NCBI RefSeq assembly: GCF_015711645.1
Contig: NZ_JABTEX010000002.1
Location: forward strand, 620,001 to 684,000
Length of the DNA: 64,000 nucleotides
Source: Planomonospora sp. ID82291
GTDB taxonomy: Bacteria > Actinomycetota > Actinomycetes > Streptosporangiales > Streptosporangiaceae
Reading direction: 5' to 3'
In this document: piece after piece, positions 12,603-27,196 of the stretch
Layout: every line of letters starts with the position of its first letter
How positions within the stretch are numbered: position 1 is the first letter of the stretch
Notes under the pieces: generated by a model
The model's database searches: none
The model's input: the letters and a program-made list of their open reading frames with translations, nothing else
Told to the model about the DNA's origin: nothing
Translations under genes and position numbers: made by a program

Positions 12603-12638
12603 TGCATGCAATATGCATGCTAATTTGTATGCATGGGA
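12603..12638 (+). promoter_or_regulatory. Operator-like palindromes overlapping the vapB start
   Basis: An unusually AT-rich stretch carries gcatgc twice around aatat, and atgcat twice around gctaatttgt, reaching into the first codon of vapB. Such nested palindromes are typical autoregulatory operators of ribbon-helix-helix antitoxins. No SD precedes the ATG, so leaderless translation is possible. Confidence 0.55.
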
Positions 12639-12857
12639 ACCATGCAGATTCGAGATGTCCCCGACGAGACCGAGCGGACGCTGAAGGCGCGAGCCGAGCG
12701 TGAGGGCAAGTCGTTGACGGCCTACCTGCGCGATCTCCTCAACGAGGAGGCGGCCACCCCGACGCTCGACGAGGTCATGGCCAGGGTCGCAGCCGACGAG
12801 CCGGTGCCGTACGATCCGGACTTCGTCCGCGAGACGCTGCGCGAGGGTCGCCGGTGA
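12633..12857 (+). CDS. VapB-type (FitA-like ribbon-helix-helix) antitoxin
   Basis: 74-aa antitoxin. The N-terminal ribbon-helix-helix (MQIRDVPDETERTLKARA, then GKSLTAYLRDLL) binds DNA; the C-terminal part (VPYDPDFVRETLREGRR) should cover the toxin active site. The start is ATG at 12633 or the in-frame ATG at 12642. The stop overlaps the vapC GTG as GTGA. A palindromic operator lies over its start. Confidence 0.88.
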   Translation: MGTMQIRDVPDETERTLKARAEREGKSLTAYLRDLLNEEAATPTLDEVMARVAADEPVPYDPDFVRETLREGRR

Positions 12858-13267
12858 GCCTGGTCGTCGACGCCTCGATCGTCTTCCGCCTGCTGGCCAA
12901 CGTGAAAGGCGACGATCTGCTCCGTCAGCGGCTGGCCCGCAGGCTGCACGCCCCGGCACTGATCGACGTCGAGATCGCCTCGGTGGTGCGCGGGCATGTG
13001 ATCACGAGTAAGCCGGAGGTGCGCATCTCCGAGGAGCGGGCCGGCGTCATGCTGGAGCGGTACGCCCAGTTGAAGATCGTCCGCCATCCGATGCTGCCGC
13101 TGCAGTCGCGTGTGCTGGAACTGCGCAATGACCTCACCGCCTACGACGGCATGTACGTCGCGCTCGCGGAACTGCTGGGGGTGCCGCTGCTCACGGACGA
13201 CGCCGAGTTCGCCGGTTCGACGGGGCACCGGGCGGAGATCCACCGCTACCCGCCGCCGTTGGCGTAG
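12854..13267 (+). CDS. VapC family PIN-domain ribonuclease toxin
   Basis: 137-aa PIN-domain toxin expected to cleave RNA with Mg2+ or Mn2+. Acidic active-site residues are visible: Asp6 (VVDAS), Glu40 (IDVEIAS), Asp98 (TAYDGMYVALAE) and Asp116 (LLTDDAEFA), so this copy looks functional. The GTG overlaps the end of vapB. A near-identical copy of its last third lies at 8095-8272. Confidence 0.92.
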   Translation: MSLVVDASIVFRLLANVKGDDLLRQRLARRLHAPALIDVEIASVVRGHVITSKPEVRISEERAGVMLERYAQLKIVRHPMLPLQSRVLELRNDLTAYDGMYVALAELLGVPLLTDDAEFAGSTGHRAEIHRYPPPLA

Positions 13268-13401: not shown

Positions 13402-14487
13402 TCAGTCCAGGACGACGACCTGGCGCAGGACCTCGCCGCCGCGCAGGGCCGCGACGGCGTCGTTGAGGTCGGCGAGCCTGATCCGGGAGCTGATCATGCT
13501 CTCCAGGTCGAGCTTGCCGGCCTTGTACAGCTCGGCGAAGAACGGGAAGTCCCGGCGCACGTCCGCCCCGCCGTACATCGAGCTGAGGATGTTCTTGCCC
13601 TCGAACAGCAGGCTGAAGGCGCTCAGCGGGACGATGTCGTCCATCGCGCCAGCGCCGACGACGATCATGTCGCCGCCGCGGCGGGTCGCCTGCCAGGCGG
13701 TCATGATCGCGGCGGACTTGCCGACGGCCTCGAATCCGTAGTCGAAGCCCTTGCCCCCGGTCAGCGTGCCGATCGCGTCCATCAGCTCATCGGGCGTGAC
13801 CGCGTGGGTGGCGCCGACCTTCTCGGCCAGCGCGTGCTTGGACTCCAGCGGGTCGATCGCCAGGATCGTGGTCGCGCCGGAGATCCGGGCGCCCTGGATG
13901 ATCGACAGGCCGATCCCGCCGCAGCCGACCACGGCCACGGTCGAGCCCGCGCGGACCCTGGCCGTGTTGAGCGCCGCGCCGACGCCGGTGGTGACGCCGC
14001 AGCCGATCAGCGCCGCCACCTCGAAGGGCACCTCCGGGTCGACCTTGACCGCGCCCTGCCAGGGCACGACGATCTCCTCGCACCAGGTGCCGCAGCCGGC
14101 CATGCCGAACGCCGGGGTGTCGCCGCCGTAGCGGAACCGGGCGTTGACGAAGCTGTCCATGACGTAGGTCATGCACAGGAACGGCTGGTTCACCAGGCAG
14201 TTGGGGCAGGTGCCGCAGGCCGGGGTCCAGTTGACGATGACGTGGTCGCCGGGCTGGACCGTGGTCACGTGGTCGCCGACCTCGACGACCTCGCCCGCGC
14301 CCTCGTGGCCGGGGATGACCGGGAGCGGCATCGGCAGCACGCCGCTCAGCACCGACAGGTCGGAGTGGCAGACGCCGGTGGCCCTGACCTTGATCCGGAC
14401 GTCCGCCGGACCGATCGGGGCCAGGGTGAAGTCGTCGCGGATGTCGAGCTTGTCGTCGCCGACGGCGTGGAGCAGCGCACCGCGCAT
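13402..14487 (-). CDS. Zinc-type alcohol dehydrogenase (NDMA-dependent/Rxyl_3153-like)
   Basis: 361-aa medium-chain dehydrogenase oxidising an alcohol with a bound or exchangeable nicotinamide cofactor. Catalytic-zinc residues lie in GVCHSDLS and GHEGAGEVVEVG; structural-zinc Cys are in PACGTCPNCLVNQPFLC; the Rossmann motif is VVGCGGIGLS. Homology starts at ATG 14487. It is the last gene of a PPOX-ferredoxin-dehydrogenase operon. A KstR-like operator precedes the operon, so a steroid or other lipid alcohol is a reasonable substrate class (inference). Confidence 0.88.
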   Translation of the reverse strand: MRGALLHAVGDDKLDIRDDFTLAPIGPADVRIKVRATGVCHSDLSVLSGVLPMPLPVIPGHEGAGEVVEVGDHVTTVQPGDHVIVNWTPACGTCPNCLVNQPFLCMTYVMDSFVNARFRYGGDTPAFGMAGCGTWCEEIVVPWQGAVKVDPEVPFEVAALIGCGVTTGVGAALNTARVRAGSTVAVVGCGGIGLSIIQGARISGATTILAIDPLESKHALAEKVGATHAVTPDELMDAIGTLTGGKGFDYGFEAVGKSAAIMTAWQATRRGGDMIVVGAGAMDDIVPLSAFSLLFEGKNILSSMYGGADVRRDFPFFAELYKAGKLDLESMISSRIRLADLNDAVAALRGGEVLRQVVVLD

Positions 14488-14509
14488 GGGGGTCCTCCTG
14501 GGTCCGGGG

Positions 14510-14719
14510 TTATGCCTTCTCCTCGGGGGTCTCCTCGAGGGAGAGGGCGGCTTTGGGGCAGGACCGCACGGCGTGCCGGACGCGGTCCATCATCTCCGGC
14601 GGCGGCTCAGGCAGCAGCACGTGCAGCTGGTCGTCGTCGTCGACGTCGAAGACCTCCGGGGCGAGTCCCATGCAGACGGCGTTGGCCTCGCAGACCAGAT
14701 AGTCGACCTTGATCTTCAT
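14510..14719 (-). CDS. P450-type ferredoxin (3Fe-4S class)
   Basis: 69-aa ferredoxin with Cys10-X5-Cys16 and Cys54-Pro and Asn at the intermediate position 13. This matches the CXX?XXC(X)nCP pattern known for actinobacterial cytochrome P450 redox partners. The start is ATG 14719 because GAGGAGG lies upstream; an earlier in-frame start at 14737 lacks an SD. It could supply electrons to the P450 at 21903-23099 even though the genes are 7 kb apart; both have a KstR-like site upstream. Confidence 0.85.
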   Translation of the reverse strand: MKIKVDYLVCEANAVCMGLAPEVFDVDDDDQLHVLLPEPPPEMMDRVRHAVRSCPKAALSLEETPEEKA

Positions 14720-14733
14720 GAGCGTGAACCTCC

Positions 14734-15207
14734 TCAACCGGACTGGATCGGCGTGCCGAGCTTACGGTGGTCCCAGGAGACCACCCGGGTGGGCTCGACG
14801 ACGAACGCGACCCTTTTCCGGCCGGTGTGGGCGACGTACTCGGAGACGAGCTCCTCGGAGTCCGGCATCCCCGCCATCCGCCGGGTCACGCCCATGCCGA
14901 CGCGCAGCACGCCCTCCGGGTCGTCGATCACGCGCGCGACGCCGTACACCAGGACGCCGCGCAGCGCGGCGTAGTCGTCCCCGGCCTCGATGAGGCAGCT
15001 CACCCGGGCGTCCCGCTCGATGTTGCGGGTCTTCTGGGCCTTGCCGTAGGTCCAGAAAGCGATCTTCCCCTCGTCCAGCCCGTAGAACATGGTGACCAGG
15101 TGGGGCGTGCCGTCGGGGTTGATCGTGCCGAGCTGGAGTTTCCGCGACTCCGCGATGAAGGCGGTGACCTCGTCGTCGGACATCGCTATGCGCGCGCGCT
15201 GATTCAC
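14734..15207 (-). CDS. Pyridoxamine 5'-phosphate oxidase/PPOX family protein
   Basis: About 157 aa, split-barrel flavin- or F420-binding fold: LQLGTINPDGTPHLVTMFYGLD, KIAFWTYGKAQKTRNIERDARVSCLIEAG and LRGVLVYGVARVIDD. The start is uncertain: GTG 15207, ATG 15183, or an upstream ATG at 15243 that would place coding sequence over the operator-like palindrome. First gene of the operon with ferredoxin and dehydrogenase. Substrate unknown; small F420 or FMN reductase-like roles are possible. Confidence 0.8.
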   Translation of the reverse strand: MNQRARIAMSDDEVTAFIAESRKLQLGTINPDGTPHLVTMFYGLDEGKIAFWTYGKAQKTRNIERDARVSCLIEAGDDYAALRGVLVYGVARVIDDPEGVLRVGMGVTRRMAGMPDSEELVSEYVAHTGRKRVAFVVEPTRVVSWDHRKLGTPIQSG

Positions 15208-15216
15208 GGTGCAAAG

Positions 15217-15230
15217 TAGAACATGTTCCA
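15217..15230. promoter_or_regulatory. KstR-like operator
   Basis: TAGAACATGTTCCA fits the mycobacterial KstR consensus TnnAACnnGTnnnA and is nearly palindromic. It lies 10 bases upstream of the PPOX GTG and 55 bases upstream of the divergent methyltransferase gene, so it could control either. Linked evidence is a KstR-type regulator gene at 24072-24785. Confidence 0.6.
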
Positions 15231-15284: not shown

Positions 15285-15980
15285 ATGAGCAACGCCACCG
15301 GGCCTTCCGGCCTGCCCGCGGACGCGCCCCCCGGCCCGCCGCCGAGCATGCCCGCGGACCTGCTGCAGGCCGCCCAGCGCGCCAAGGGGTTCATGCCCCG
15401 GGCCGAGGGGATCGCCCTGTTCGAGACCGCCGCCGCGTACGGCGCGCGCGGGCCGATCTGCGAGATCGGCACCTACTGCGGCAAGTCCGCCGTCTACCTC
15501 GGCGCGGGCGCCCGTCTGTCCGGCTCCGTCGTGCTGACCGTGGACCACCACCGGGGCTCGGAGGAGATCCAGCCGGGCTGGGCCCACCACGACCCCACGC
15601 TGGTCGACCCCCGCTTCGGCAAGATGGACTCCCTGCCGACCTTCCGCTGCACGATCGCCGCGGCCGGGCTGGAGGAGGAGGTCATCGCGATCGTCGGCCG
15701 GTCGGAGAAGGTCGCCGGGTTCTGGAACACCCCGCTGGGGATGCTGTTCATCGACGGCGGCCACTCCGAGGAGCCGGTGACCAAGGACTACGAGGGCTGG
15801 GCCCCGCACGTGGTGCAGGGCGGCGCGCTGGTCTTCCACGACATCTACCCCGACCCGGCCGACGGCGGGCAGGCGCCGTACCGCGTCCACCAGCGGGCGC
15901 TGGCCTCCGGGGCGTTCACGGAGGTCCGGCGGGAGGGCTCGCTGCGGGTGCTGGAGCGGATCGGCCCCGGCATCGGCTGA
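15285..15980 (+). CDS. Class I SAM-dependent methyltransferase-like protein
   Basis: 231 aa. A Pro/Gly/Ala-rich N-terminal tail (about 25 residues) precedes a Rossmann-like methyltransferase domain: the glycine-rich motif ICEIGTYCGKSAVYLGAG (about 60-77), then VVLTVDHHRG, MLFIDGGHSEEPVTKDYEGW and VFHDIYPDP. The DGGH/HD arrangement resembles metal-assisted O-methyltransferases of the Methyltransf_24 type. The acceptor is unknown. It is divergent from the PPOX operon and convergent with the cyclase-like gene. Confidence 0.8.
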   Translation: MSNATGPSGLPADAPPGPPPSMPADLLQAAQRAKGFMPRAEGIALFETAAAYGARGPICEIGTYCGKSAVYLGAGARLSGSVVLTVDHHRGSEEIQPGWAHHDPTLVDPRFGKMDSLPTFRCTIAAAGLEEEVIAIVGRSEKVAGFWNTPLGMLFIDGGHSEEPVTKDYEGWAPHVVQGGALVFHDIYPDPADGGQAPYRVHQRALASGAFTEVRREGSLRVLERIGPGIG

Positions 15981-16066
15981 CCGGGCCGCCCCGGGCCGCG
16001 GCACTCGCCGCCCCGGCCCCGGCCGCCCCGGCGCTCGTCGGCCCCGGCCGCCCCGGCCCCGGCCGG
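15981..16066. repeat. GC-only tandem-like repeats at a convergent junction
   Basis: 86 bases built from overlapping copies of ggccccggccgccccgg, ending at the stop of the minus-strand gene. Could fold into strong hairpins and act as a bidirectional terminator. Confidence 0.6.
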
Positions 16067-17107
16067 TCAGCCGAGGGAGGGGGCGTGGCTGCAGCCGCAG
16101 GCCGCGGTGGGGCGGTCCGTGGCGCAGGCGCCCGCGTCGCGGAAGAGGCCCGCCGCGGGGGTGAGGCCGTACAGCGCGTCGGCGGCGAGCACGACGGCGG
16201 CCGCGGTGTAGGCCGAGCGCTCGTGCGGGAACCACTTCTCGTTCACGAACTGCCAGCCGGTCCAGTAGGACCCGTCCTCGTGCCGCAGGTGCTGCATGTC
16301 GGCGAAGAGCTTCTCGGCCCGCTCCCGGTCGCCCAGGGCGTCCAGCGCCAGCACCAGCTCGCACGTCTCCGCGCCGGTCACCCAGGGCTGGTCGGAGACG
16401 CAGCGGATGCCCAGGCCCGGCTCGACGAAGGTGTCCCACTCCTCGGCCAGCCGGGCGTGGGCCGCCGGGCCGCGCAGGGCGCCGCCGAGGATCGGGTAGT
16501 ACCAGTCCATCGAGAAGCGGCTCTTGTCGGCGAACGCCTCGGGGTGGGCGGCCAAAACGTGGCCGAGCTGGTCGGCCGCCAGCTCCCAGTCGGGCTGCGG
16601 GTCGCCCAGGTGCTCGCCGAGCAGCACGCCGCAGCGCAGGCCCTGGTGGACGGAGGCGCAGCCGGTCAGCAGGGCGTAGGAGGCCGCCCGGCCGTCCGCG
16701 GCCCGCTCCCAGACGATCTCGCCCCGGGTGGTCTGCAGGCCGACGGTGAAGTCGAGGGCGGAGCGCACGACGGGCCACATCTCGCGGGCGAAGCCCTCGT
16801 CGCCGGTGACCAGCAGCTCGTGCCAGACGCCGACCGCGACGTAGGCCGCGTGGTTGGACTCCCCGCCGTGCTCGACGGCCCGGCCGCCGACCAGCTTCAT
16901 CGGCCAGGACCCGTCGGCCCGCTGGGTGCGGACCAGCCAGTCGTATCCCCGGCGGACCGGCCCGGCCAGCCCGGCCACGCTCATCGCCATCAGGCACTCG
17001 ACGTGGTTCCAGGCGTCGACGTGGCCCTCGGGCCAGGGGACGCCGCCGTCGGCCTCCTGCACGGCCGCGATGCTCCGCGCGGTCTGGACGACCCGTTCCC
17101 GGTCCAT
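16067..17107 (-). CDS. Prenyltransferase/terpenoid cyclase-like toroid protein
   Basis: 346 aa of all-alpha repeats similar to the (alpha/alpha)6 barrels of prenyltransferases and squalene-hopene cyclases: VQEADGGVPW, TQRADGSWPMK, MDWYYPILGGALRG and HLRHEDGSYWTGWQFVNEKWFP are QW-like or barrel repeats. A clear DXDD cyclase motif is not seen, so cyclase activity is doubtful; a glycan- or lipid-binding or -modifying role is possible. Third gene of a minus-strand operon with a glycosyltransferase and a methyltransferase (3-base gap to the latter). The C-terminus is Cys-rich (CATDRPTAACGCSH). Confidence 0.75.
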   Translation of the reverse strand: MDRERVVQTARSIAAVQEADGGVPWPEGHVDAWNHVECLMAMSVAGLAGPVRRGYDWLVRTQRADGSWPMKLVGGRAVEHGGESNHAAYVAVGVWHELLVTGDEGFAREMWPVVRSALDFTVGLQTTRGEIVWERAADGRAASYALLTGCASVHQGLRCGVLLGEHLGDPQPDWELAADQLGHVLAAHPEAFADKSRFSMDWYYPILGGALRGPAAHARLAEEWDTFVEPGLGIRCVSDQPWVTGAETCELVLALDALGDRERAEKLFADMQHLRHEDGSYWTGWQFVNEKWFPHERSAYTAAAVVLAADALYGLTPAAGLFRDAGACATDRPTAACGCSHAPSLG

Positions 17108-17110
17108 CGC

Positions 17111-17824
17111 TCAGGCGGGCTTCCGGACGTAGAGCACGACGCTCTTGCCGATGAGCGGGTTGAGCAGCGCCTCGGCGATGCGGGTGGCGGCCGGGCGCTT
17201 CATGATGTCCCAGACGAGGATCTCGTGGTACGCCTTGGCCAGCGGGTGGTCGTCGTTGTTCACGCCGACCGCGCACTTGATCCACCAGTACGGCGCGTGC
17301 AGGCCGTGGGCGTGGTGGTGCGGGCCGATGACGAACCCGGTGGCCTTGAGCTTGGCGCCGAGCTCGGCGAGCGTGTAGATCCGCACGTGCCCGCCGGGAG
17401 CGGTGTGGTAGTCCTCGTCCAGCGCCCAGCAGATCCGCTCGGGCAGGAAGCTGGGCACCGTGACCGCGGCCAGGCCGCCCGGCTTGAGCACCCGGAAGAT
17501 CTCCCGCATCGCCGCCATGTCGTCGGGGATGTGCTCCAGGACCTCGGCGGCGATCACCCGGTCGAAGGAGGCGTCCTCGAACGGCATGTCCAGCGCGTCG
17601 CCGGTCACCGTCTCGGCGGTCGCCTCGTCGGGCACCTCGCCGGCCTGCTCCATCGCGGCGAACATGGTCGCCACGCCCTTCAGCTCCTCGGCGTCCATGT
17701 CGAACGCGACCACGTCGGCGCCCCGGCGCAGCACCTCGAAGGCGTGCCGCCCGCCGCCGCAGCCGAGATCGAGGACCCGGGTCCCGGGCCCGACGGGCAA
17801 CCGGCCGAAGTCGACAGTCAGCAC
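17111..17824 (-). CDS. Class I SAM-dependent methyltransferase
   Basis: 237-aa methyltransferase of the UbiE/Methyltransf_11 type. Motif I is VLDLGCGGGRHAFE, the acidic ribose-binding residue is in VVAFDMD, motif II is FDRVIAAEVLEHIPDD and motif III is LKPGGLAAVTVP. A GTG start is used, preceded by GAGGAGCG. The C-terminal part (HHHAHGLHAPYWWIKC) is probably the acceptor pocket. It follows the GT4 gene by about 40 bases and abuts the cyclase-like gene, suggesting sequential modification of one glycolipid or isoprenoid substrate. Confidence 0.85.
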   Translation of the reverse strand: MLTVDFGRLPVGPGTRVLDLGCGGGRHAFEVLRRGADVVAFDMDAEELKGVATMFAAMEQAGEVPDEATAETVTGDALDMPFEDASFDRVIAAEVLEHIPDDMAAMREIFRVLKPGGLAAVTVPSFLPERICWALDEDYHTAPGGHVRIYTLAELGAKLKATGFVIGPHHHAHGLHAPYWWIKCAVGVNNDDHPLAKAYHEILVWDIMKRPAATRIAEALLNPLIGKSVVLYVRKPA

Positions 17825-17864
17825 GTACCGCTCCTCGCAGAGATCCAGGTGGGAAAGGGGTCGA

Positions 17865-19118
17865 TCACGTCGTACTGGTCGTGGGGTGGACCCGGATGGC
17901 CTCGCGGTAGGCCTCCACGGTCCGCTGCGCGACGACCTTCCAGGTGTAGCGCTCCATCGCGCGCTCGTAGCCGCGCCGGCCGACCTCGGCCCGCTCCTCG
18001 GGGGAGTCGTGCAGGCGGCGCAGCACGGCGGCCAGCTCCTCGGGGTCGCCGGGGGCGACCTGGACCGCGGCGTCGCCGACGACCTCCGGCAGCGCGCCGG
18101 TCCGCGAGGCGACGAGCGGGGTCCCGCAGGCCATGTGCTCGACGGCCGGGAGGGAGAAGCCCTCGTAGAGCGAGGGGACGACCGCGATCTCCGAGGTGGC
18201 GATCAGCTCGCCCAGCTCGGTGTCGGAGATGCCGTGCACGAACCGGACCCGGTCGGCCAGGGAGAGCTCGGCCACCAGCTTCTCGGTCGGGCCGCCCGGA
18301 GTCGGCCTGCTCACCACGGTCAGGTTCACGTCGCGCTCGGTGGCGAGCTTGGCCACCGCGCGCAGCAGCGTCGCCACGCCCTTCATCGGCGAGTCGGCGC
18401 TGGCCACCGCGACGATCGAGCCGGGGCGCTTGGGCAGCTCCGGGCGCGGGTGGAAGTAGCGGGTGTCCACGCCCAGCGGGATGAGCCGCATGTTGGCCTG
18501 CGGGACGTTGAAGTCGCGGTGGATGTCGGCCAGGGAGGACTCGCTGACGGTCAGGATCGGGTTCAGCCGCGGGGCGACCTTGGCCTGCATGCGCACGAAG
18601 CCGTACCAGCGCCGCATCGAGAACTGCTTGCGCAGCGGGGCGGCCTTGAGCTCGATCCGCCGGTCGACGCTGATCGGGTGGTGGATGGTGCCGACCACCG
18701 GGAAGAGCTTGGCGATGCCGAGCAGGCCGTAGCCGAGGGTCTGGTTGTCCTGGACCACGTCGAAGTCGCCGACGCGCTTGGCGAGCTCGCGGCGGGCGCG
18801 CAGGCTGAAGGTGAGCGGCTCGGGGAACCCGGCGGTCCACATGGTCGCGACCTCGAGCACGTCGATCCAGTCGCGGAACTCGCGCAGCCCGGGGGTGCGG
18901 AAGGGGTCCTCGTCGCGGTAGAGGTCCAGGCTGGGGACCTTGGTGAGGACGACGCCCTCGTCGAGCTCGGGGTACGGCTGGCCGGAGAGGACCTCCACGC
19001 GGTGGCCGAGGGCGACCAGTTCGCGGCTGAGGTGGCGCAGGTAGACCCCCTGGCCGCCGCAGGTCGGCTTGCTCCGGTAGGACAGCAGAGCGATCCGCAG
19101 CGAGTCCGCACCTGGCAC
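17865..19118 (-). CDS. Glycosyltransferase family 4 protein
   Basis: 417-aa GT-B fold retaining glycosyltransferase using a nucleotide sugar. The N-terminal domain begins LRIALLSYRSKPTCGGQGVY; the C-terminal donor domain contains VASADSPMKGVATLLRA, VRFVHGISDTELGELIA and the EX7E motif in YEGFSLPAVEHMACGTP. A GTG start at 19118 with GGAAGGGG just upstream is well supported. First gene of the three-gene minus-strand operon. GDP-mannose-derived donors are suggested by the divergent GDP-mannose dehydratase gene, but this is only context. Confidence 0.9.
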   Translation of the reverse strand: MPGADSLRIALLSYRSKPTCGGQGVYLRHLSRELVALGHRVEVLSGQPYPELDEGVVLTKVPSLDLYRDEDPFRTPGLREFRDWIDVLEVATMWTAGFPEPLTFSLRARRELAKRVGDFDVVQDNQTLGYGLLGIAKLFPVVGTIHHPISVDRRIELKAAPLRKQFSMRRWYGFVRMQAKVAPRLNPILTVSESSLADIHRDFNVPQANMRLIPLGVDTRYFHPRPELPKRPGSIVAVASADSPMKGVATLLRAVAKLATERDVNLTVVSRPTPGGPTEKLVAELSLADRVRFVHGISDTELGELIATSEIAVVPSLYEGFSLPAVEHMACGTPLVASRTGALPEVVGDAAVQVAPGDPEELAAVLRRLHDSPEERAEVGRRGYERAMERYTWKVVAQRTVEAYREAIRVHPTTSTT

Positions 19119-19424
19119 GGCAACCCCTTCCTCACCCTGTCCGGGTGAGGACAGGTACCGTGAAAGATGACCTTAGTCCTCGGACCCTACCATTCGGTAG
19201 GTCTCACCCTTCTAATGTGGAATTGTGCTCAGTGTCACTTTCAGGGCATGCGAGCTGCGGCGTTGGTCCATCCGATCGTGATTCGGTGCAACGGGTTCTA
19301 GTGACACGATCCCCGGTATGGTGCCCATAGCAGGGCAGGGCGGTACATTCGCCAGTCAACGGCATACCGTCCGGGGAGGACCCGGTCCGGGAGCAGGCCC
19401 CGCCCGACGAGCAAGGAGGACGCG
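19119..19424. promoter_or_regulatory. Divergent promoter region with KstR-like site
   Basis: 306 bases between the GT4 operon and the GDP-mannose dehydratase gene, AT-rich in the middle. cctacc-attc-ggtagg (19186-19201) is a small palindrome. TGCAACGGGTTCTA (19287-19300) fits the KstR consensus TnnAACnnGTnnnA but is less symmetrical than the sites at 15217 and 23231. No gene is evident. Confidence 0.5.
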
Positions 19425-20453
19425 TTGGCCAGGCGCGCGCTGATCACCGGCATCACCGGGCAGGACGGTTCCTACCTGGCCGAATGCCTGCTGAGCGAGG
19501 GCTACGAGGTCTGGGGACTCGTCCGGGGGCAGGCCAACCCGCGCGTCTCCCGGGTGCGCCGGCTCCTGCAGGACGTCCAGCTGGTCCGCGGCGACCTGCT
19601 CGACCAGGGCTCGCTCATCTCCGCGGTGGAGAAGGTCCAGCCCGACGAGGTCTACAACCTGGGCGCCATCTCGTTCGTGCCGATGTCGTGGGAGCAGGCC
19701 GAGCTGACCGCCGAGGTCACCGGCATGGGCGTGCTGCGCATGCTGGAGGCCATCCGGGTCTGCTCGGGGATCTCCTCCGCGCGGACCGCCGGCGGCTCCG
19801 GCCAGATCCGGTTCTACCAGGCGTCGTCGTCGGAGATGTTCGGCCAGGTCCGGGAGACCCCGCAGGCGGAGACCACCCCGTTCCACCCCCGCTCGCCGTA
19901 CGGCGTGGCCAAGGCCTACGGCCACTTCCTGACCCAGAACTACCGCGAGTCCTACGGGATGTTCGCGGTCAGCGGCATCCTGTTCAACCACGAGTCGCCG
20001 CGCCGCGGCGCCGAGTTCGTCACCCGCAAGGTCTCCCTCGGCGTGGCCCGCATCAAGCTGGGCCTGGCCTCGGAGCTGCGCCTGGGCAACCTGGAGGCCC
20101 GCCGCGACTGGGGCTACGCCGGCGACTACGTCCGGGCGATGCACCTGATGCTCCAGGCCGACACGCCCGAGGACTACGTCATCGGCACCGGCCGGACCCA
20201 GTCGGTGCGCGAGCTGGTGGAGGCGGCCTTCACCGCCGCCGGTCTCGACTGGGAGCGGTACGTGGTCGCCGACCGGTCCCTGCACCGCCCGGCCGAGGTC
20301 GACCTGCTCTGCGCCGACCCGAAGAAGGCCCGCGTCCAGCTCGGCTGGGAGCCCTCGGTCTCCTTCGAGGAACTGGTCGCCATGATGGTCGAGGCCGACG
20401 TCAAGCTCCTGTCCGAGGGCGGCGACCCCGACCAGGACTCCTCCTGGCCATGA
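19425..20453 (+). CDS. gmd: GDP-mannose 4,6-dehydratase
   Basis: 342-aa short-chain dehydrogenase-type enzyme converting GDP-D-mannose to GDP-4-keto-6-deoxymannose. NADP-binding motif ALITGITGQDGSYLAE; catalytic region FYQASSSEMFG and SPYGVAKAYGHF (Tyr/Lys pair); ILFNHESPRRGAEFVTRK and LGNLEARRDWGYAGDYV are specific for the GMD family. A TTG start with ideal AAGGAGGA upstream. The product could be reduced to fucose- or rhamnose-type sugars for the neighbouring glycosyltransferase; no GMER or reductase gene is adjacent. Confidence 0.92.
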   Translation: MARRALITGITGQDGSYLAECLLSEGYEVWGLVRGQANPRVSRVRRLLQDVQLVRGDLLDQGSLISAVEKVQPDEVYNLGAISFVPMSWEQAELTAEVTGMGVLRMLEAIRVCSGISSARTAGGSGQIRFYQASSSEMFGQVRETPQAETTPFHPRSPYGVAKAYGHFLTQNYRESYGMFAVSGILFNHESPRRGAEFVTRKVSLGVARIKLGLASELRLGNLEARRDWGYAGDYVRAMHLMLQADTPEDYVIGTGRTQSVRELVEAAFTAAGLDWERYVVADRSLHRPAEVDLLCADPKKARVQLGWEPSVSFEELVAMMVEADVKLLSEGGDPDQDSSWP

Positions 20454-20834: not shown

Positions 20835-20920
20835 AGCCAGGCTCAGCGTCCGCTCAGGAAGGGTGGGGCAGTGTGGAGGGCGATCCCCGGAAGAGGGGTC
20901 CCGTCACGGAGGAGTCCGTC

Positions 20921-21910
20921 ATGCTCGTCCACGCCACGCGCCCCGCGGGTCCGGAAGAGGTCCTGTCCGGCCCGGCCGTCTCCGCCGGGTTGCGGCAGGT
21001 GGAGAGGCGCCTGCGGAGCCTGAGCGCCTCGTCCCGGCTGCCCTCCGTCAACCGGGCGGTCGCCCGGATCACCGGTGCGGGGGGCAAGCGGCTCCGTCCC
21101 GCGCTGACCCTGGCCGCGGCGCTCGCCCTGGGAGGGCGGATCGATCGGCGGACGGTGACCGCGGCGGCGTGCGTGGAGCTCGTCCACGCGGGCTCGCTGG
21201 TCCACGACGACCTGATGGACGGCGCGGCCGAGCGCCGCGGCGTGCGGACCCTCAACGCCGAGCTGGGCGGCGCCCGGGCGCTGTTGGTGGGCGACTTCAT
21301 GCTGGCCAGGGCGGCGCTCACGGCGCTCTCCTCGGTCTCCAAGCCGGTGGCCGCGACGCTGGCCGCCACCGTCGTCGAACTGGCCGAGGGCCAGTTCCAG
21401 GAGACGGCCGAGCTCTTCGACGCGGACCGCACCCCGCAGAGCGCCCTGCGCTCCGTCCGCCGCAAGACCGCCTCCCTGTTCCGGGCGAGCTGCCTGGTCG
21501 CGCACCCGGACGGGCAGGCACTGGCGGAGTACGGCGAGCGGTTCGGCATGATGTTCCAGATCCTGGACGACCTGCTGGACCTGTGCTCCACGACCGAGCT
21601 GCTCGGCAAGCCGGCCGGCAACGACCTCCGGCAGGGGGTCTACACCTTCCCCCTGATCACGGCGGTGTCCCGGGACTGCGCGGACCTGCGCCCGTTCCTC
21701 GGCCGGCGGCTGACCGAGGACGAGGTCGCGACCGTGCTGGACCGGCTGAGAGGCGGCGGCATGGCGGAGGAGACGCTCGCGCACTGCCGGGGCCTGGCGG
21801 CGGACGCCGTCGCCGCGCTGCCCCCCATCGCCGACCCCGAGGCCGCCGCCGCCCTGTACGGCCTGCCGTCCGCCTACCTCGGCCGGGCGGAGTCCCTGCT
21901 GCTCAGGTGA
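20921..21910 (+). CDS. Polyprenyl (isoprenyl diphosphate) synthase
   Basis: 329-aa trans-prenyltransferase condensing isopentenyl diphosphate with an allylic diphosphate. The first aspartate-rich motif is in LVHDDLMDGAAERRG, the second in FQILDDLLDLC, and GAGGKRLRPALTLAAA is the conserved N-terminal pocket. ATG 20921 has an ideal GGAGGAG six bases upstream; an in-frame GTG at 20873 would add 16 residues. Chain length cannot be read safely. It overlaps the P450 gene 3' to 3' by 8 bp. The product may serve quinone or lipid-carrier synthesis, or the neighbouring cyclase-like protein. Confidence 0.88.
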   Translation: MLVHATRPAGPEEVLSGPAVSAGLRQVERRLRSLSASSRLPSVNRAVARITGAGGKRLRPALTLAAALALGGRIDRRTVTAAACVELVHAGSLVHDDLMDGAAERRGVRTLNAELGGARALLVGDFMLARAALTALSSVSKPVAATLAATVVELAEGQFQETAELFDADRTPQSALRSVRRKTASLFRASCLVAHPDGQALAEYGERFGMMFQILDDLLDLCSTTELLGKPAGNDLRQGVYTFPLITAVSRDCADLRPFLGRRLTEDEVATVLDRLRGGGMAEETLAHCRGLAADAVAALPPIADPEAAAALYGLPSAYLGRAESLLLR

Positions 21911-23099
21911 GGTCGACCGGCAGTTCCTTGATGCCGTTGATGAAGTTGGAGCGCAGGCGCCGGGCCGGGCCGGTCTGGGAGATCTTCGGCAGCCGCTCGG
22001 CCAGCACCTCGAACAGGACCCGGAGCTCCAGCTTGGCGAGGTGGTTGCCGAGGCAGAAGTGGGCCCCGCCGCCGCCGAACCCGATGTGCGGGTTGGGGTC
22101 GCGGCCGATGTCGAAGACGCCGGGGGAGTCGAACACGGACTCGTCCCGGTTGGCCGAGCTGTAGAAGACCACGACCTTGTCGTTCTCGCGGATCTCCTGC
22201 CCTCCGATCACCGTGTCCGCGGTCGCCGTGCGGCGGAAGAGGTTGACCGGGGAGACCCAGCGGACGATCTCCTCGGCCGCGGTGGGGGCGAGCGCCGGTT
22301 CGGCCACCAGGCGGGACCACTGCTCGGGGTGCTCGAAGAGGGTGAGCATGCCGCCGGAGGCCGCGTTGCGGGTCGTCTCGTTGCCCGCGACCACCAGCAG
22401 GAGCACGAACAGGTCGAACTCGTTCTCGTCGAGCGCCTCGCCGTCCTCGGCGGGCTGCAGGAGCCTGGTGATGATGTCGTCGCGCGGCTCCGCCCGGCGC
22501 TGGGCGGCCAGGGTGTTGGCGTAGGCGTAGACCTCCGAGGCCGCGTCGCGCCCCTGCGACGGGTCGGCCGCGTAGTCCGGGTCCTCGGCGCCGATCATCT
22601 GGTTGGACCAGGTGAACAGCTTGTCGCGGTCCTCGACGGGCGCGCCTAGCAGCTCGCAGATGACGTAGAGCGGCAGCGGGGCGGCGATGTCCCGGACGAA
22701 GTCGGCCGAGCCGCGGCCCCTGGCCTCGTCGACCAGGTCGTGGCAGATGTCGCGGATGTGCTGCTCCAGCCGTCCGATGACCCGCGGGGTGAAGCCCCGG
22801 TTGACCAGGGAGCGCCGCCGGGTGTGCTCCGGCGGGTCCTGGTTGAGCATCATCATCCGCTGGAGCTCGCGCTCCTCCTCGGGCATCTCGTTGATCAGGG
22901 CGAGCTTGCGGTGGGAGGAGAACAGGTCGGAGTGGCGGGAGACGTGGACCACGTCGGCGTGCCGGGTCACCGCCCAGAACCCGGGGCCTTCGGGGTCGGG
23001 GTGCCAGTGGACCGGGTCGTTGGCGCGCAGCCAGGCGAACTGCTCGTGGGGAGGACCGTGCTCCGCGTAGACGTCCTGGTCGATGACGTTGATGTCCAT
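21903..23099 (-). CDS. Cytochrome P450, CYP124/125/142-like (sterol or branched-lipid oxidation)
   Basis: 398-aa soluble bacterial P450. The I-helix motif is VVAGNETTRNA, ExxR lies in EEIVRW, and the heme-ligand loop is FGGGGAHFCLG with Cys349. The AGNETTRNA, SPVNLFRRTA, SANRDESVF and NPNPHIGFGG segments match the CYP124/125/142 group, which hydroxylates cholesterol side chains or methyl-branched lipids at the terminal carbon; I cannot tell which subfamily. ATG 23099 fits the family start. A KstR-like operator lies 132 bases upstream, and a P450-type ferredoxin is encoded in a second operon with such a site. Confidence 0.87.
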   Translation of the reverse strand: MDINVIDQDVYAEHGPPHEQFAWLRANDPVHWHPDPEGPGFWAVTRHADVVHVSRHSDLFSSHRKLALINEMPEEERELQRMMMLNQDPPEHTRRRSLVNRGFTPRVIGRLEQHIRDICHDLVDEARGRGSADFVRDIAAPLPLYVICELLGAPVEDRDKLFTWSNQMIGAEDPDYAADPSQGRDAASEVYAYANTLAAQRRAEPRDDIITRLLQPAEDGEALDENEFDLFVLLLVVAGNETTRNAASGGMLTLFEHPEQWSRLVAEPALAPTAAEEIVRWVSPVNLFRRTATADTVIGGQEIRENDKVVVFYSSANRDESVFDSPGVFDIGRDPNPHIGFGGGGAHFCLGNHLAKLELRVLFEVLAERLPKISQTGPARRLRSNFINGIKELPVDLT

Positions 23100-23217: not shown

Positions 23218-23244
23218 TTGAACATGTTTCTGAAACGTGTTCTA
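23218..23244. promoter_or_regulatory. KstR-like operator(s) upstream of the P450 gene
   Basis: TGAAACGTGTTCTA (23231-23244) fits TnnAACnnGTnnnA exactly. Immediately before it, TTGAACATGTTTCT (23218-23231) has the same AACnnGTT core with one flank mismatch, giving two overlapping half-turn-spaced sites. They lie in the gap between the FadR-type gene and the P450 gene. Confidence 0.6.
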
Positions 23245-24071: not shown

Positions 24072-24785
24072 TCACGAGGGGGGAGCGGCCGGGAAATCGG
24101 CGAACAGGCGGGTGGCGACGATCTCGATGCGCCACTGGATCTGCTCGTACGTCCGCCGTCCGCGCAGCATCTCCAGCAGCTCGTGGACCCAGACGCTCGC
24201 CAGCGAACCGGCGAGGGCGACCTGCTCCTCGGTCGGGCCGTCCCCCTCGCCGGGGCGCTCCCCGGCGACGCGGACGAGCAGGCCCGCCATGCGGTCGCCG
24301 AACGGGGTCTCCACCTCGGTCATGATCAGCGAGCGGATGAGCGCGTCGGCGAGCTCGGGTTCGCGCATGAGACCGCGGGTGGCCCGCATCAGCACGTCGA
24401 CCGCGCGGCCCGCCGGATCCGCGGCACCGGGCGGCCGGCGCTCGATGCTGCTCTCCAGCAGGTCGATCTCCTCGCCCACGACGGCGACGACCAGGTCCAT
24501 CTTCGAGGGGAAGTAGCGGTAGAGGGTGCCCAGCGCGACGCCCGCGCGCTCGGCGACGGTGCGCATCTGCATGGCCTCGACGCCGCCGCGGGAGGCCAGG
24601 GCCGCGGCGGCCTGGATGATGCGCTTGCGCCGCTGGTGCTGGCTCCTCGTGCGGACGCCGGTGGCTGAGGGTTCGCCGTGCACGCCTGCCCCCTTGCTCG
24701 TGACGGGTCCGGCGGTGCTCGGGGCGGACGTGCCGGCGAGGCGCGGGGTCTCCGGCACCTCGATGGTCATATGCGGAGTACGCAT
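24072..24785 (-). CDS. kstR: TetR family regulator, KstR-like
   Basis: About 237 aa with a long nonconserved N-terminus and a TetR HTH (RRKRIIQAAAALASRGG, MQMRTVAERAGVALGTLYRYFPSK). This stretch closely resembles mycobacterial KstR, the repressor of cholesterol side-chain genes, as does the downstream DVWVHELL-type helix here reading SVWVHELLEML. The start is ATG 24785 or ATG 24770; neither has a good SD. It is divergent from the FadE28/29-like genes, and operator-like sites lie between them, which fits autoregulation. The symbol is given on similarity recalled from memory. Confidence 0.78.
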   Translation of the reverse strand: MRTPHMTIEVPETPRLAGTSAPSTAGPVTSKGAGVHGEPSATGVRTRSQHQRRKRIIQAAAALASRGGVEAMQMRTVAERAGVALGTLYRYFPSKMDLVVAVVGEEIDLLESSIERRPPGAADPAGRAVDVLMRATRGLMREPELADALIRSLIMTEVETPFGDRMAGLLVRVAGERPGEGDGPTEEQVALAGSLASVWVHELLEMLRGRRTYEQIQWRIEIVATRLFADFPAAPPS

Positions 24786-24931
24786 GAGAACACGTTATCT
24801 GATTTCCTCCTCCTCCGATGAGTTACCCACCGGTCACCAGTCCCCTCTTCTCTCCATGAGATATGTCTCACGGCGATGTTCTGTGCGATGGTGCGAAGAG
24901 ATGCTCTGGACAGTTATTGGAATGTGTTCTA
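24786..24931. promoter_or_regulatory. KstR-like operators between kstR-like and fadE-like genes
   Basis: Two AACnnGTT-type elements flank the divergent promoters. AACACGTT (24789-24796) lies next to the regulator's own start but lacks the outer T and A. TGGAATGTGTTCTA (24918-24931) matches the KstR consensus with one mismatch and lies 43 bases upstream of the acyl-CoA dehydrogenase GTG. The region is markedly AT-rich. Confidence 0.55.
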
Positions 24932-24974: not shown

Positions 24975-26045
24975 GTGGACTTCACCCTTGACGAGGCGCA
25001 GGACGAGCTGCGCGGGCTCGCGGCGGGGCTGCTCGGGCGGGAGGCGGCCCCGGCCCGGATCGAGGCCCACGAGCGGAGCGGCGAGCCGTACGACGCGGGG
25101 CTGTGGCGCTCCCTCGCCCGCGCCGGGCTGCTCGGCGCGGTCCTGCCCGAGGAGGCGGGCGGCGCCGGTCTGGGGCCGGTGGAGCTGGCGGTGATCCTGC
25201 GCGAGGTCGGCGCCCACGTCGCCCCCGTCCCCGTCCAGCAGAGCCTGGTCGCCGCGATGACCGTCGCCCGGTACGGCTCGGCCGCGCAGCGCCGGGCGCT
25301 GGCCCCGCTGGCCGAGGGCGGGCTGGTGCTGAGCGCGGCGGCGGATTCCGGCGCGGCGACGGCCCGGCGGGCCACGGGAGGCGGCTGGGCGCTCGACGGC
25401 CGCACCGGCGTCGCGCCCTACGCCGCCCAGGCGGACCGGGTGCTGGTCCCGGCCGCGGTGGACGGCGGGACCGGGCTGTTCCTGGTCGATCCGGGGACGG
25501 CGGAGCCGCTGACCATCCCCCTGCCGTCCGGCGAGCCGGGGGCCGTGCTGGTGCTGGACGGCGTCCCCGCCGAACCGGTCGGCCCGGCCGGGGACGGACA
25601 GGCGCTGCGGGGCCTGCGGCACCTGTCCGTCGCGGGGGCCGTCGCCACCGCCTCCGGCGTGCTGGCCGGAGCCCTGGCGCTGACCACCGGCTACCTCGGG
25701 ACGCGCCGGCAGTTCGGCCGGGCGCTGGCCGAGTTCCAGGCGGTGACCATGCAGATCGCCGACGTCTACATCGCCGGCAGGGCCCTGGACGTGGCCCTGT
25801 GGTCGGCGGTCTGGCGGCTGGCGGAGGGGCCGCCCGAGGAGGCGGAGGCGGACCTGGAGGTGGGCGCGTTCACCGCGGCCGGCCCCGCGCTGAAGGCGCT
25901 GTACACCTGCCAGCACCTGCACGGCGGGATCGGGCTGGACGTGACCTACCCGCTGCACCGCCACTTCGCCTGGGCCAGGCACCAGGCCCACCTGCTGGGC
26001 GGGGCGGAGGCCCGGCTCGACCGGATCGGAGCGCTCACCGCATGA
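24975..26045 (+). CDS. Acyl-CoA dehydrogenase family protein, FadE28/ChsE1-like partner
   Basis: 356 aa, acyl-CoA dehydrogenase fold, flavoprotein. It begins FTLDEAQDELRGLAAGLLG; the C-terminal domain has YLGTRRQFGRALAEFQAV, QIADVYIAGRALD and CQHLHGGIGLDVTYPLHRH. In mycobacteria steroid-specific enzymes of this type are heterotetramers of two unlike subunits encoded side by side; this gene overlaps the next by ATGA. GTG with GGGAGG upstream. Preceded by a KstR-like site, so it would be induced with sterol catabolism. Confidence 0.85.
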   Translation: MDFTLDEAQDELRGLAAGLLGREAAPARIEAHERSGEPYDAGLWRSLARAGLLGAVLPEEAGGAGLGPVELAVILREVGAHVAPVPVQQSLVAAMTVARYGSAAQRRALAPLAEGGLVLSAAADSGAATARRATGGGWALDGRTGVAPYAAQADRVLVPAAVDGGTGLFLVDPGTAEPLTIPLPSGEPGAVLVLDGVPAEPVGPAGDGQALRGLRHLSVAGAVATASGVLAGALALTTGYLGTRRQFGRALAEFQAVTMQIADVYIAGRALDVALWSAVWRLAEGPPEEAEADLEVGAFTAAGPALKALYTCQHLHGGIGLDVTYPLHRHFAWARHQAHLLGGAEARLDRIGALTA

Positions 26046-27196
26046 TGATCGACCTGACCGCGGAGCAGAAGCGGCTCCGCCACGAGCTGCGCGAGTACTT
26101 CCAGGGCTGCCTGACCGCCGAGGAGCGCGCGAAGATCGACGCCGACCCGTTCGGCGACGCCTACATGGAGCACTGCCGGCGGCTCGGCCGCGACGGCAGG
26201 CTCGGCCTGGGCTGGCCGAAGGAGTACGGCGGCGGCGGGTACGGTCCGCTGGAGCAGCAGATCTTCGCCAACGAGATCGCCCGGGCCGAGGTGCCCTACC
26301 CGCTCATCACCGTGCAGACCGTCGGCCCGACCCTCATGCAGTACGGCACGCCCGCCCAGAAGGACCGCTTCCTCCCGCGCATCCTGGCCGGGGAGTGCCA
26401 CTTCGCGATCGGCTACAGCGAGCCGGAGGCGGGCACCGACCTGGCGTCCCTGCGCACCACGGCGGTCCTCGACGGCGACCACTACGTGGTGGACGGGCAG
26501 AAGACGTTCACCTCGGGCGCCCACTACGCGGACCACATCTGGCTGGCCGCCCGTACCGACCCGGCGGCGAAGCGGCACCGCGGCATCACGATGATGATCG
26601 TCGACTGCGCCGACCCGGGCTTCTCCTGGACGCCGATCGTCACCATGGACGGGCGGCACCACACCAACGCCACCTACTACTCCGGGGTGCGGGTGCCGGT
26701 GGACATGGTGGTGGGGGAGGTGAACCGCGGCTGGGACCTGATCGTCGACCAGCTCAACCACGAGCGGGTCACGCTCGGTCCGGCGGGCAACCTCGGCCGC
26801 CTCCAGGACCGGTTCCTGGACTGGGCGCGGGGCGCGGGACTGGACGGCGAGCCGGCGGTGCGCCGCGCGCTCGGCCGCCTGCACGTGCTGTTCCGCACCA
26901 ACGAGCTGCTCAACTGGCAGGTCGCGGCGGGCATGGACCGCGGCTGGCTGGGCGCCCCGGACGCCTCCGCGACCAAGGTCTACGCCTCGGAGGCGATGCA
27001 GGAGGCCGGCCGGCTCCTCGGCGACGTCCTGGCCCGCTTCGGCGACCTGGCCGATCCGGAGACGGCGGCGTTCGCCGACCGGCTCGACCGCCTGGCCAGG
27101 GGCGCGCTCGTGCTGACCTTCGGCGGCGGCGTCAACGAGGTGCAGCGCGAGCTGATCGCCATGCTCGGGCTGGGCCTGCCGAGGCCGCCTCGCTGA
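26042..27196 (+). CDS. Acyl-CoA dehydrogenase, FadE29/ChsE2-like
   Basis: 384-aa second subunit. It reads IDLTAEQKRLRHELREYFQG, GRDGRLGLGWPKEYGGGGYGP, QTVGPTLMQYGT, FAIGYSEPEAGTDLASLRT and LVLTFGGGVNEVQRELIAM, which follows mycobacterial FadE29 almost segment by segment. FadE28-FadE29 dehydrogenates the three-carbon side-chain acyl-CoA left on the steroid nucleus. The hydratase and lyase genes that follow in the mycobacterial igr operon (chsH1/H2, ltp2) are absent here; a histidine kinase gene follows instead. Confidence 0.87.
   Translation: MMIDLTAEQKRLRHELREYFQGCLTAEERAKIDADPFGDAYMEHCRRLGRDGRLGLGWPKEYGGGGYGPLEQQIFANEIARAEVPYPLITVQTVGPTLMQYGTPAQKDRFLPRILAGECHFAIGYSEPEAGTDLASLRTTAVLDGDHYVVDGQKTFTSGAHYADHIWLAARTDPAAKRHRGITMMIVDCADPGFSWTPIVTMDGRHHTNATYYSGVRVPVDMVVGEVNRGWDLIVDQLNHERVTLGPAGNLGRLQDRFLDWARGAGLDGEPAVRRALGRLHVLFRTNELLNWQVAAGMDRGWLGAPDASATKVYASEAMQEAGRLLGDVLARFGDLADPETAAFADRLDRLARGALVLTFGGGVNEVQRELIAMLGLGLPRPPR

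Follow-up and report, generated by a model that had tools for sequence, protein, structure and literature searches.

The PPOX-ferredoxin-alcohol dehydrogenase operon at positions 13402-15207 of a 64,000-nucleotide stretch of Planomonospora sp. ID82291 (contig NZ_JABTEX010000002.1, positions 620,001 to 684,000; the whole stretch is called the window here) is predicted to belong to a KstR-like regulon, together with a CYP125-type cytochrome P450, a pair of acyl-CoA dehydrogenases and the genes for methylmannose polysaccharide (MMP), a reading to which we give a probability of about 0.7. The regulon appears to be of KstR type and joined to MMP synthesis. Its members are tied together by a 14-bp palindrome, the best copy of which lies directly in front of the operon. 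In the list of open reading frames the three operon genes run in a single direction, with short gaps, on the minus strand:

13402-14487, minus strand: zinc-type (MDR) alcohol dehydrogenase, terminal operon gene (Pfam ADH_N and ADH_zinc_N)
14510-14719, minus strand: small [3Fe-4S]-type ferredoxin (C10-X2-N-X2-C16...C54-P; Pfam Fer4_13/Fer4_15)
14734-15207, minus strand: PPOX / FDOR-type flavoprotein, first operon gene, GTG start (Pfam PNPOx_N; PDB 1rfe, Rv2991, E 2e-33)
15217-15230: predicted KstR-type operator of the PPOX operon, exact TAGAACATGTTCCA; candidate operator also for the divergent gene MeT1

The operator in front of the PPOX operon

The palindrome TAGAACATGTTCCA fits the published KstR core TnnAACnnGTTnnA, the full form of which is TAGAAC(N2)GTTCTA (PMC1995591, drawn on here from excerpts, as are PMC6208970 and PMC9883506). 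Four copies of the core occur in the window against 0.04 expected, a number reached in 0 of 100 shuffles; three are in this cluster and the fourth is at 58955. The scoring matrix was originally trained on 13 sites including the window's, and the window was ranked again with a matrix from the relatives' sites only. The site at 15217-15230 is then still the top place in the 64 kb (score 27.4), as the preliminary description of this DNA had claimed, and it is followed by 23231, 19287, 24918 and 23218, all five lying between the operon and the acyl-CoA dehydrogenases.

Nine bases separate the palindrome from the PPOX start. A search for PPOX homologues across 59 genomes, that of the window among them, gave 30 matches in 28 genomes, and every match was fetched. 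Within 250 bp upstream of PPOX the exact core is present in 13 of the 14 genomes where PPOX is followed by the ferredoxin; in 12 of these 13 it begins 22-23 bp ahead of the start. It is found, even with one mismatch allowed, in 0 of the 16 PPOX homologues lacking the ferredoxin. The 14th genome (G005) has an operator decayed in register, TGCCCCGTGTTCTA. Of the 29 loci with divergent MeT1 and ferredoxin, 25 have kept the operator, L197, L199 and L200 among them, and L182 (decayed), L193, L196 and L212 are without it. The PPOX operators of G005 (L128) and of Streptosporangium sandarakinum (L182) both have the left half altered in register (TGCCCC..GTTCTA), a natural operator mutant.

The upstream region was aligned for the window and 31 chosen loci, 13 from relatives and 18 from the 80 named loci of an MmpH scan (the best 80 of 587). 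A TTGCC-like element is found in 30 of the 32 rows and TACT at the palindrome end also in 30 (TACTTT in 18), while the PPOX start lies 8-9 bases past the palindrome in 22 of the 25 rows that have PPOX. The two elements would be the -35 and -10 boxes of a promoter overlain by the repressor site, and the PPOX transcript is probably leaderless. A chance palindrome was considered and rejected on the grounds of conservation, the shuffles, and reversed-sequence and leave-out scans; 15217-15230 is a conserved predicted operator.

Operators shared across the cluster

From the palindrome to the dehydrogenases the cluster reads as follows:

15285-15980, plus strand: MeT1, MMP 1-O-methyltransferase (PDB 6g7d, E 9.1e-74)
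16067-17107, minus strand: MmpH, MMP hydrolase (PDB 7qsj, 'Methylmannose polysaccharide hydrolase (MmpH)', E 1.3e-120)
17111-17824, minus strand: pMeT3, putative MMP 3-O-methyltransferase (Pfam methyltransferase; named from gene order alone, after PMC9883506)
17865-19118, minus strand: ManT, MMP alpha-(1->4)-mannosyltransferase (PDB 7qsg, E 4.2e-142)
19287-19300: predicted KstR-type operator between the ManT operon and GMD, present in 13 of 13 genomes with GMD in the fetched stretch
19425-20453, plus strand: GDP-mannose 4,6-dehydratase-like protein (GMD; 412.9 bits, cut-off 415)
21903-23099, minus strand: CYP125-type cytochrome P450 (PDB 8vxi, CYP125MRCA, 547 bits; CYP125 377; CYP124 347)
23231-23244: predicted KstR-type operator upstream of the P450, with a weaker second copy at 23218-23231
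24072-24785, minus strand: KstR-like TetR regulator, candidate repressor (NF033703, 134 bits; PDB KstR 5aqc, E 5.9e-31)
24786-24799: GATAACGTGTTCTC-like conserved element at the regulator start, close to the regulator in all 24 loci, at up to 3 mismatches
24918-24931: predicted KstR-type operator between the regulator and the acyl-CoA dehydrogenase pair
24975-26045, plus strand: acyl-CoA dehydrogenase subunit like Tcur3481 (PDB 6wy8_A, E 2.9e-64)
26042-27196, plus strand: acyl-CoA dehydrogenase subunit like Tcur3483 (PDB 6wy8_B, E 1.5e-113)

Operators of at least 15 bits were counted from -300 to +40 of the called starts in this cluster and those of the relatives. The relatives' stretches had been chosen for holding PPOX, P450 or the regulator, the frequency of MMP genes elsewhere being outside their scope, and the gene caller is a simple scorer of G+C by codon position; some of its starts are approximate, so the upstream windows may be off. 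On this footing a site precedes PPOX in 13 of 14 cases, GMD in 13 of 13, MeT1 in 13 of 17 (through the shared intergenic region), ManT in 13 of 24, the P450 in 14 of 21, the regulator in 18 of 24 (often the site common to the dehydrogenases), FadD in 3 of 4 and FadA5 in 11 of 15 entries (G021 counted twice). The figure for the acyl-CoA dehydrogenase genes is 10 of 30, partly because the second gene of the pair closely trails the first. Ten neighbouring families serving as controls (F14, F16, F18, F20-F23, F26, F27 and F30) gave 0 of 76 and singletons 7 of 155; further sites were counted for GntR (1/11), F9 (2/14), F17 (1/10), F25 (1/6) and F32 (2/4), some of them shared with a divergent P450 or regulator. 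The family's cluster loci, some of which overlap, hold 79 sites of at least 15 bits compared with 7 on the reversed sequence, and the 80 named loci (1.54 Mb) hold 92 of at least 18 bits compared with 0.

The operon is thus very probably co-regulated with the P450, the dehydrogenases and the MMP genes. The preliminary description had foreseen co-regulation with the P450, and sequence comparison supports this: the same operator stands before both, and all 13 family genomes with the operon have at least one P450 copy with a site (for G001, the more distant copy). It had also called the operon a possible distant partner set. The P450 is indeed 6.7 kb away, but the gap is made up of MMP genes, which the preliminary description does not mention and which share the operator, and the whole is a conserved neighbourhood.

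Across the rest of the genome, a one-mismatch motif search gave 32 and 34 matches, and the backward pattern gave 14 and 27. Many of these look like chance, and genome-wide counts were therefore left unused and conservation was examined for two distant sites. A perfect KstR-type palindrome lies 24 bp upstream of the start of an acyl-CoA thioesterase (4HBT; L061:9653-10354, G000:C8:1320652) and is kept in 4 of the 5 orthologues of at least 60% identity (7 matches in total). Another KstR-type site lies between a luciferase-type monooxygenase and a divergent sulfatase (L065:6378-9024, G000:C8:1198445) and recurs in 11 of 14 monooxygenase orthologues of at least 66% identity, with 0 of 6 among the fetched paralogues below 50%. 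A third is common to two divergent luciferase-type monooxygenases (L062:8590-10609, G000:C10:622701).

The P450 and the proteins of the operon

Among solved P450s the window's enzyme is closest to CYP125, the best match, CYP125MRCA, being by name an ancestral CYP125. Of 36 family genomes, 13 of 13 with the operon have a P450 of at least 65% identity, vs. 3 of 23 without it (Fisher p 2.4e-7, with a threshold picked after the list had been seen and with kinship uncorrected).

The ferredoxin, taken to start with ATG at 14719 (the longest reading frame begins with TTG at 14737), has the pattern C-X2-X-X2-C-Xn-C-P, with Asn as the middle X in 43 of 43 homologues and CEANAVC...CP in the window's protein; a pattern without the middle cysteine has been described for [3Fe-4S] ferredoxins of P450s (PMC6208970). 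It is also the only match in the whole genome to PF13459 and PF13370 (E 0.001), the two single-cluster models searched, and is therefore a likely P450 partner, in agreement with its original labelling as a P450-type ferredoxin. We consider it probable that it passes electrons to the P450. In Mycobacterium tuberculosis the [3Fe-4S] ferredoxin FdxD supports CYP125A1, FdxE does so less well and Fdx fails (PMC6208970), and KstR binds probes with sites beside Rv3545c (cyp125; core TGAAACGTGTTCTA) and Rv3503c/Rv3504 (fdxD/fadE26) (PMC1995591).

The third gene encodes an alcohol dehydrogenase, as had been proposed, and for its acting on the alcohol made by the P450 we would give roughly even odds. 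Assignment as an NDMA-type or a formaldehyde dehydrogenase was dropped on account of scores below the curated cut-offs: it scores 297.5 bits with TIGR03989 (NDMA-dependent alcohol dehydrogenase, cut-off 440) and 262.8 with TIGR03451 (S-(hydroxymethyl)mycothiol dehydrogenase, cut-off 512.9). PPOX is likewise under the cut-off of TIGR03618 (F420-dependent PPOX), at 74.8 bits against 79.05. The order PPOX, ferredoxin is found in 14 genomes, 13 of which (all except G036) have the alcohol dehydrogenase next. A tblastn search (E 1e-4) found no PPOX in 14 of the 29 loci with divergent MeT1 and ferredoxin, and the inclusion of PPOX in the redox chain, part of the preliminary description, is not supported. 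The operon is adjoined by a small gene pair at 12633-13267 (74 and 137 amino acids) that by eye looks like a VapBC-type toxin-antitoxin system.

The failure to find PPOX in those 14 loci would also suit a different view of the operon, as a general electron supply in which the ferredoxin serves many P450s, the alcohol dehydrogenase and PPOX have unrelated jobs, and the operator merely times their expression with lipid breakdown. The ferredoxin is the only genome match to its two models, and a first pass of the P450 search gave 34 candidate stretches in this genome, which points the same way. However, every family genome with the operon (13 of 13) also has a close CYP125 orthologue, and loci of Actinomadura and Saccharomonospora repeat the MeT1-ferredoxin arrangement together with its site. 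We regard a general supply as a serious possibility, if on the doubtful side.

The regulator

Orthologues of the TetR protein encoded at 24072-24785 are present in 23 relatives at 60-82% identity. Its recognition helix, QMRTVAERAGVALGTLYRYFPSK, is conserved, of KstR type and close to that of M. tuberculosis KstR, QMRAVADRADVAVGTLYRYFPSK. Its score with NF033703, the KstR model, stays under the cut-off of 280, which no protein in the whole genome exceeds, and it is therefore called KstR-like. The GATAACGTGTTCTC-like element at its start may possibly reflect autoregulation.

The genome has a second KstR paralogue on contig C10 (about 698-754 kb; L063, L174, L175), among HsaA, FadD3, Ltp2 and ChsH-like genes. 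It is less likely to be the true regulator of the operon: its helix, QMHEVAKAAGVAIG, differs, and no such site lies in the stretches fetched around it. This steroid locus being without the operator, the second paralogue probably reads another one.

The methylmannose polysaccharide genes

The genes meT1, mmpH, pmeT3 and manT stand together at 15285-19118, pMeT3 being recognized by gene order alone. For MeT1 the match is to PDB 6g7d, deposited as 'Methyltransferase domain protein', which we take to be MeT1; 7qsg, deposited as 'D-inositol 3-phosphate glycosyltransferase', is inferred to be ManT. A secondary-metabolite cluster, suggested by the glycosyltransferase, methyltransferase, GMD and polyprenyl synthase genes, was given up in favour of MMP after the PDB matches. 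The mycobacterial MMP cluster has the order meT1-mmpH-pmeT3-manT (PMC9883506).

All 24 genomes with a regulator orthologue have ManT in the stretches fetched around PPOX, P450 or regulator (the pieces being split over separate contigs in G003). Two CYP125-like genes behind one site precede the MMP run in G019; G001 is similar, but its fetched piece lacks a site. Five relatives (G006, G007, G010, G022 and G029; L149, L150, L152, L157 and L159) have the MMP run adjoining the KstR-like gene, four of them with a metallo-beta-lactamase-type gene beside it, and their fetched stretches show neither CYP125 nor side-chain genes.

Among the 80 named loci, those of Streptosporangium, Nonomuraea, Planotetraspora and Herbidospora and most of those of Actinomadura repeat the arrangement partly or wholly, the MmpH of Streptosporangium carneum being 91% identical to the window's. 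Six Nocardiopsis/Saccharopolyspora loci have MMP genes beside acyl-CoA dehydrogenases, ChsH2, ChsH1 and Ltp2, with a KstR-like gene in view in four. The 17 loci of mycobacterial type (Mycobacterium, Mycolicibacterium and Mycolicibacter) have no site of at least 18 bits. The association of operator and MMP genes recurs in other actinobacterial families. Convergent with the P450 is a polyprenyl synthetase gene (20873-21910), which among the other fetched clusters is seen only in L128 (G005) and L182.

Side-chain genes and the question of sterols

Neighbours in the relatives' clusters include FadA5 (NF005889, 611.9 bits over a cut-off of 515) and Ltp2 (689.4 over 469), each scored on one representative, and proteins with ChsH2 and ChsH1 domains (Pfam), which makes side-chain chemistry likely. 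In several relatives the acyl-CoA dehydrogenase pair, ChsH2, ChsH1 and Ltp2 form one run behind the operator. The window genome itself carries HsaA (645.4 bits, cut-off 450), the mark of a 9,10-seco steroid degrader, and FadD3, both on C10. HsaA is above the cut-off in five of the 14 operon genomes, the window's own (G000), G021, G027, G033 and G036.

A number of observations tell against the regulon as we propose it. The regulator's 134 bits fall short of the KstR cut-off. P450 stretches were fetched from six genomes that lack the operon, and in just one of them does the P450 have a site. Among solved ferredoxins the nearest is Fdx (8amp), the one that fails with CYP125A1; the solved-structure matches included no FdxD chain. 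G012, Spongiactinospora (L193, which has a CYP125-like P450) and Microbispora (L196) have the ferredoxin and alcohol dehydrogenase but neither PPOX nor the site, and by the model cut-offs no curated family claims the alcohol dehydrogenase. Homologues of FadA5, ChsH2, ChsH1 and Ltp2 are nowhere in the 64-kb window; the genome's Ltp2, FadA5-like and ChsH-like genes are on C10 near the second KstR paralogue, in fetched stretches without the operator. Finally, no HsaA match at E 1e-100 was obtained in nine of the 14 operon genomes (one of them, G019, is only 83% complete).

This last result means that growth on sterols cannot be the general role of the system. The 26-hydroxysterols put forward in the preliminary description as substrates of the dehydrogenase are possible in the window genome but do not extend to the group as a whole. 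The same result tells against a view of the regulon as canonical cholesterol catabolism, with the operon as simply its fdxD equivalent. FadA5, Ltp2 and ChsH2 in the relatives' clusters, and HsaA and FadD3 on C10, speak for it; yet the steroid stretches of C10 have no such operator, and in the five relatives named above the regulator orthologue is accompanied by MMP genes, with CYP125 and side-chain genes missing from the fetched stretch. We think it unlikely. Least probable is that 15217-15230 really serves the divergent MeT1, with only incidental effect on the PPOX operon: the site does precede MeT1 in 13 of 17 loci by way of the shared intergenic region, but its end lies 8-9 bp from the PPOX start in 22 of 25 rows, whereas the distance to the called (approximate) MeT1 start varies from 48 to 149 bp.

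Proposed mechanism

In the KstR-like regulon that we favour, the TetR repressor would sit on 15217-15230, inside the promoter, and be released on binding a long-chain or side-chain acyl-CoA thioester, and the same signal would open the P450, the acyl-CoA dehydrogenase pair and the MMP genes. Electrons would pass from a reductase encoded elsewhere to the ferredoxin and on to the P450, which would hydroxylate the end of an alkyl side chain. The alcohol dehydrogenase may then help to oxidise the resulting alcohol towards the acid, to be converted to its CoA ester and shortened by beta-oxidation. MMP would be made simultaneously, perhaps to hold acyl-CoAs.

That MMP sequesters acyl-CoA is itself still a proposal (PMC9883506). 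From that proposed property and the shared operator it is conceivable, though on balance doubtful, that MMP holds the acyl-CoAs of this pathway. Equally tentative is the fuller suggestion of MMP as a soluble carrier of the bulky acyl-CoAs of a CYP125 pathway, with an acyl-CoA-sensing repressor inducing everything together and with a substrate that is often a branched or isoprenoid lipid and not a growth sterol; a non-sterol substrate in many of these bacteria is suggested because the ring-cleavage marker is absent.

A conserved operator linking the MMP genes to CYP125, a likely ferredoxin and side-chain beta-oxidation gives MMP a function that can be tested. It further suggests that steroid ring degradation is no prerequisite for a KstR-like regulon, a point relevant to the substrates of CYP125-type enzymes. 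We found no paper in the open-licence literature that joins KstR with methylmannose polysaccharide, and PMC9883506 contains none of the terms KstR, cytochrome, regulat-, steroid and cholesterol.

Comparison with known systems

The igr-type side-chain operon consists of CYP125, FadE28/29, ChsH1/H2 and Ltp2. Several relatives hold the dehydrogenase pair, ChsH2, ChsH1 and Ltp2, whereas the window keeps the dehydrogenase pair alone.

The mycobacterial KstR regulon (PMC1995591) has the same 14-bp palindrome, a TetR regulator with a very similar recognition helix, and sites located at cyp125, the ferredoxin gene Rv3503c and acyl-CoA dehydrogenase genes. In contrast to it, the regulator here is under the KstR cut-off, the MMP cluster, GMD and the PPOX-ferredoxin-alcohol dehydrogenase operon are included, and the system is kept in genomes without an HsaA match.

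The FdxD-CYP125 pair of M. tuberculosis (PMC6208970) is similar in its [3Fe-4S] pattern and in co-regulation with CYP125, predicted here from shared operators. It differs in that the Planomonospora ferredoxin gene sits with PPOX and alcohol dehydrogenase genes, and the pairing with the P450 is a predicted one.

All four genes of the mycobacterial MMP cluster (PMC9883506) are present here. The mycobacterial-type loci have sites of at least 18 bits in 0 of 17 cases, whereas in Planomonospora the MMP genes are accompanied by predicted KstR-type operators, with a CYP125-type P450 alongside.

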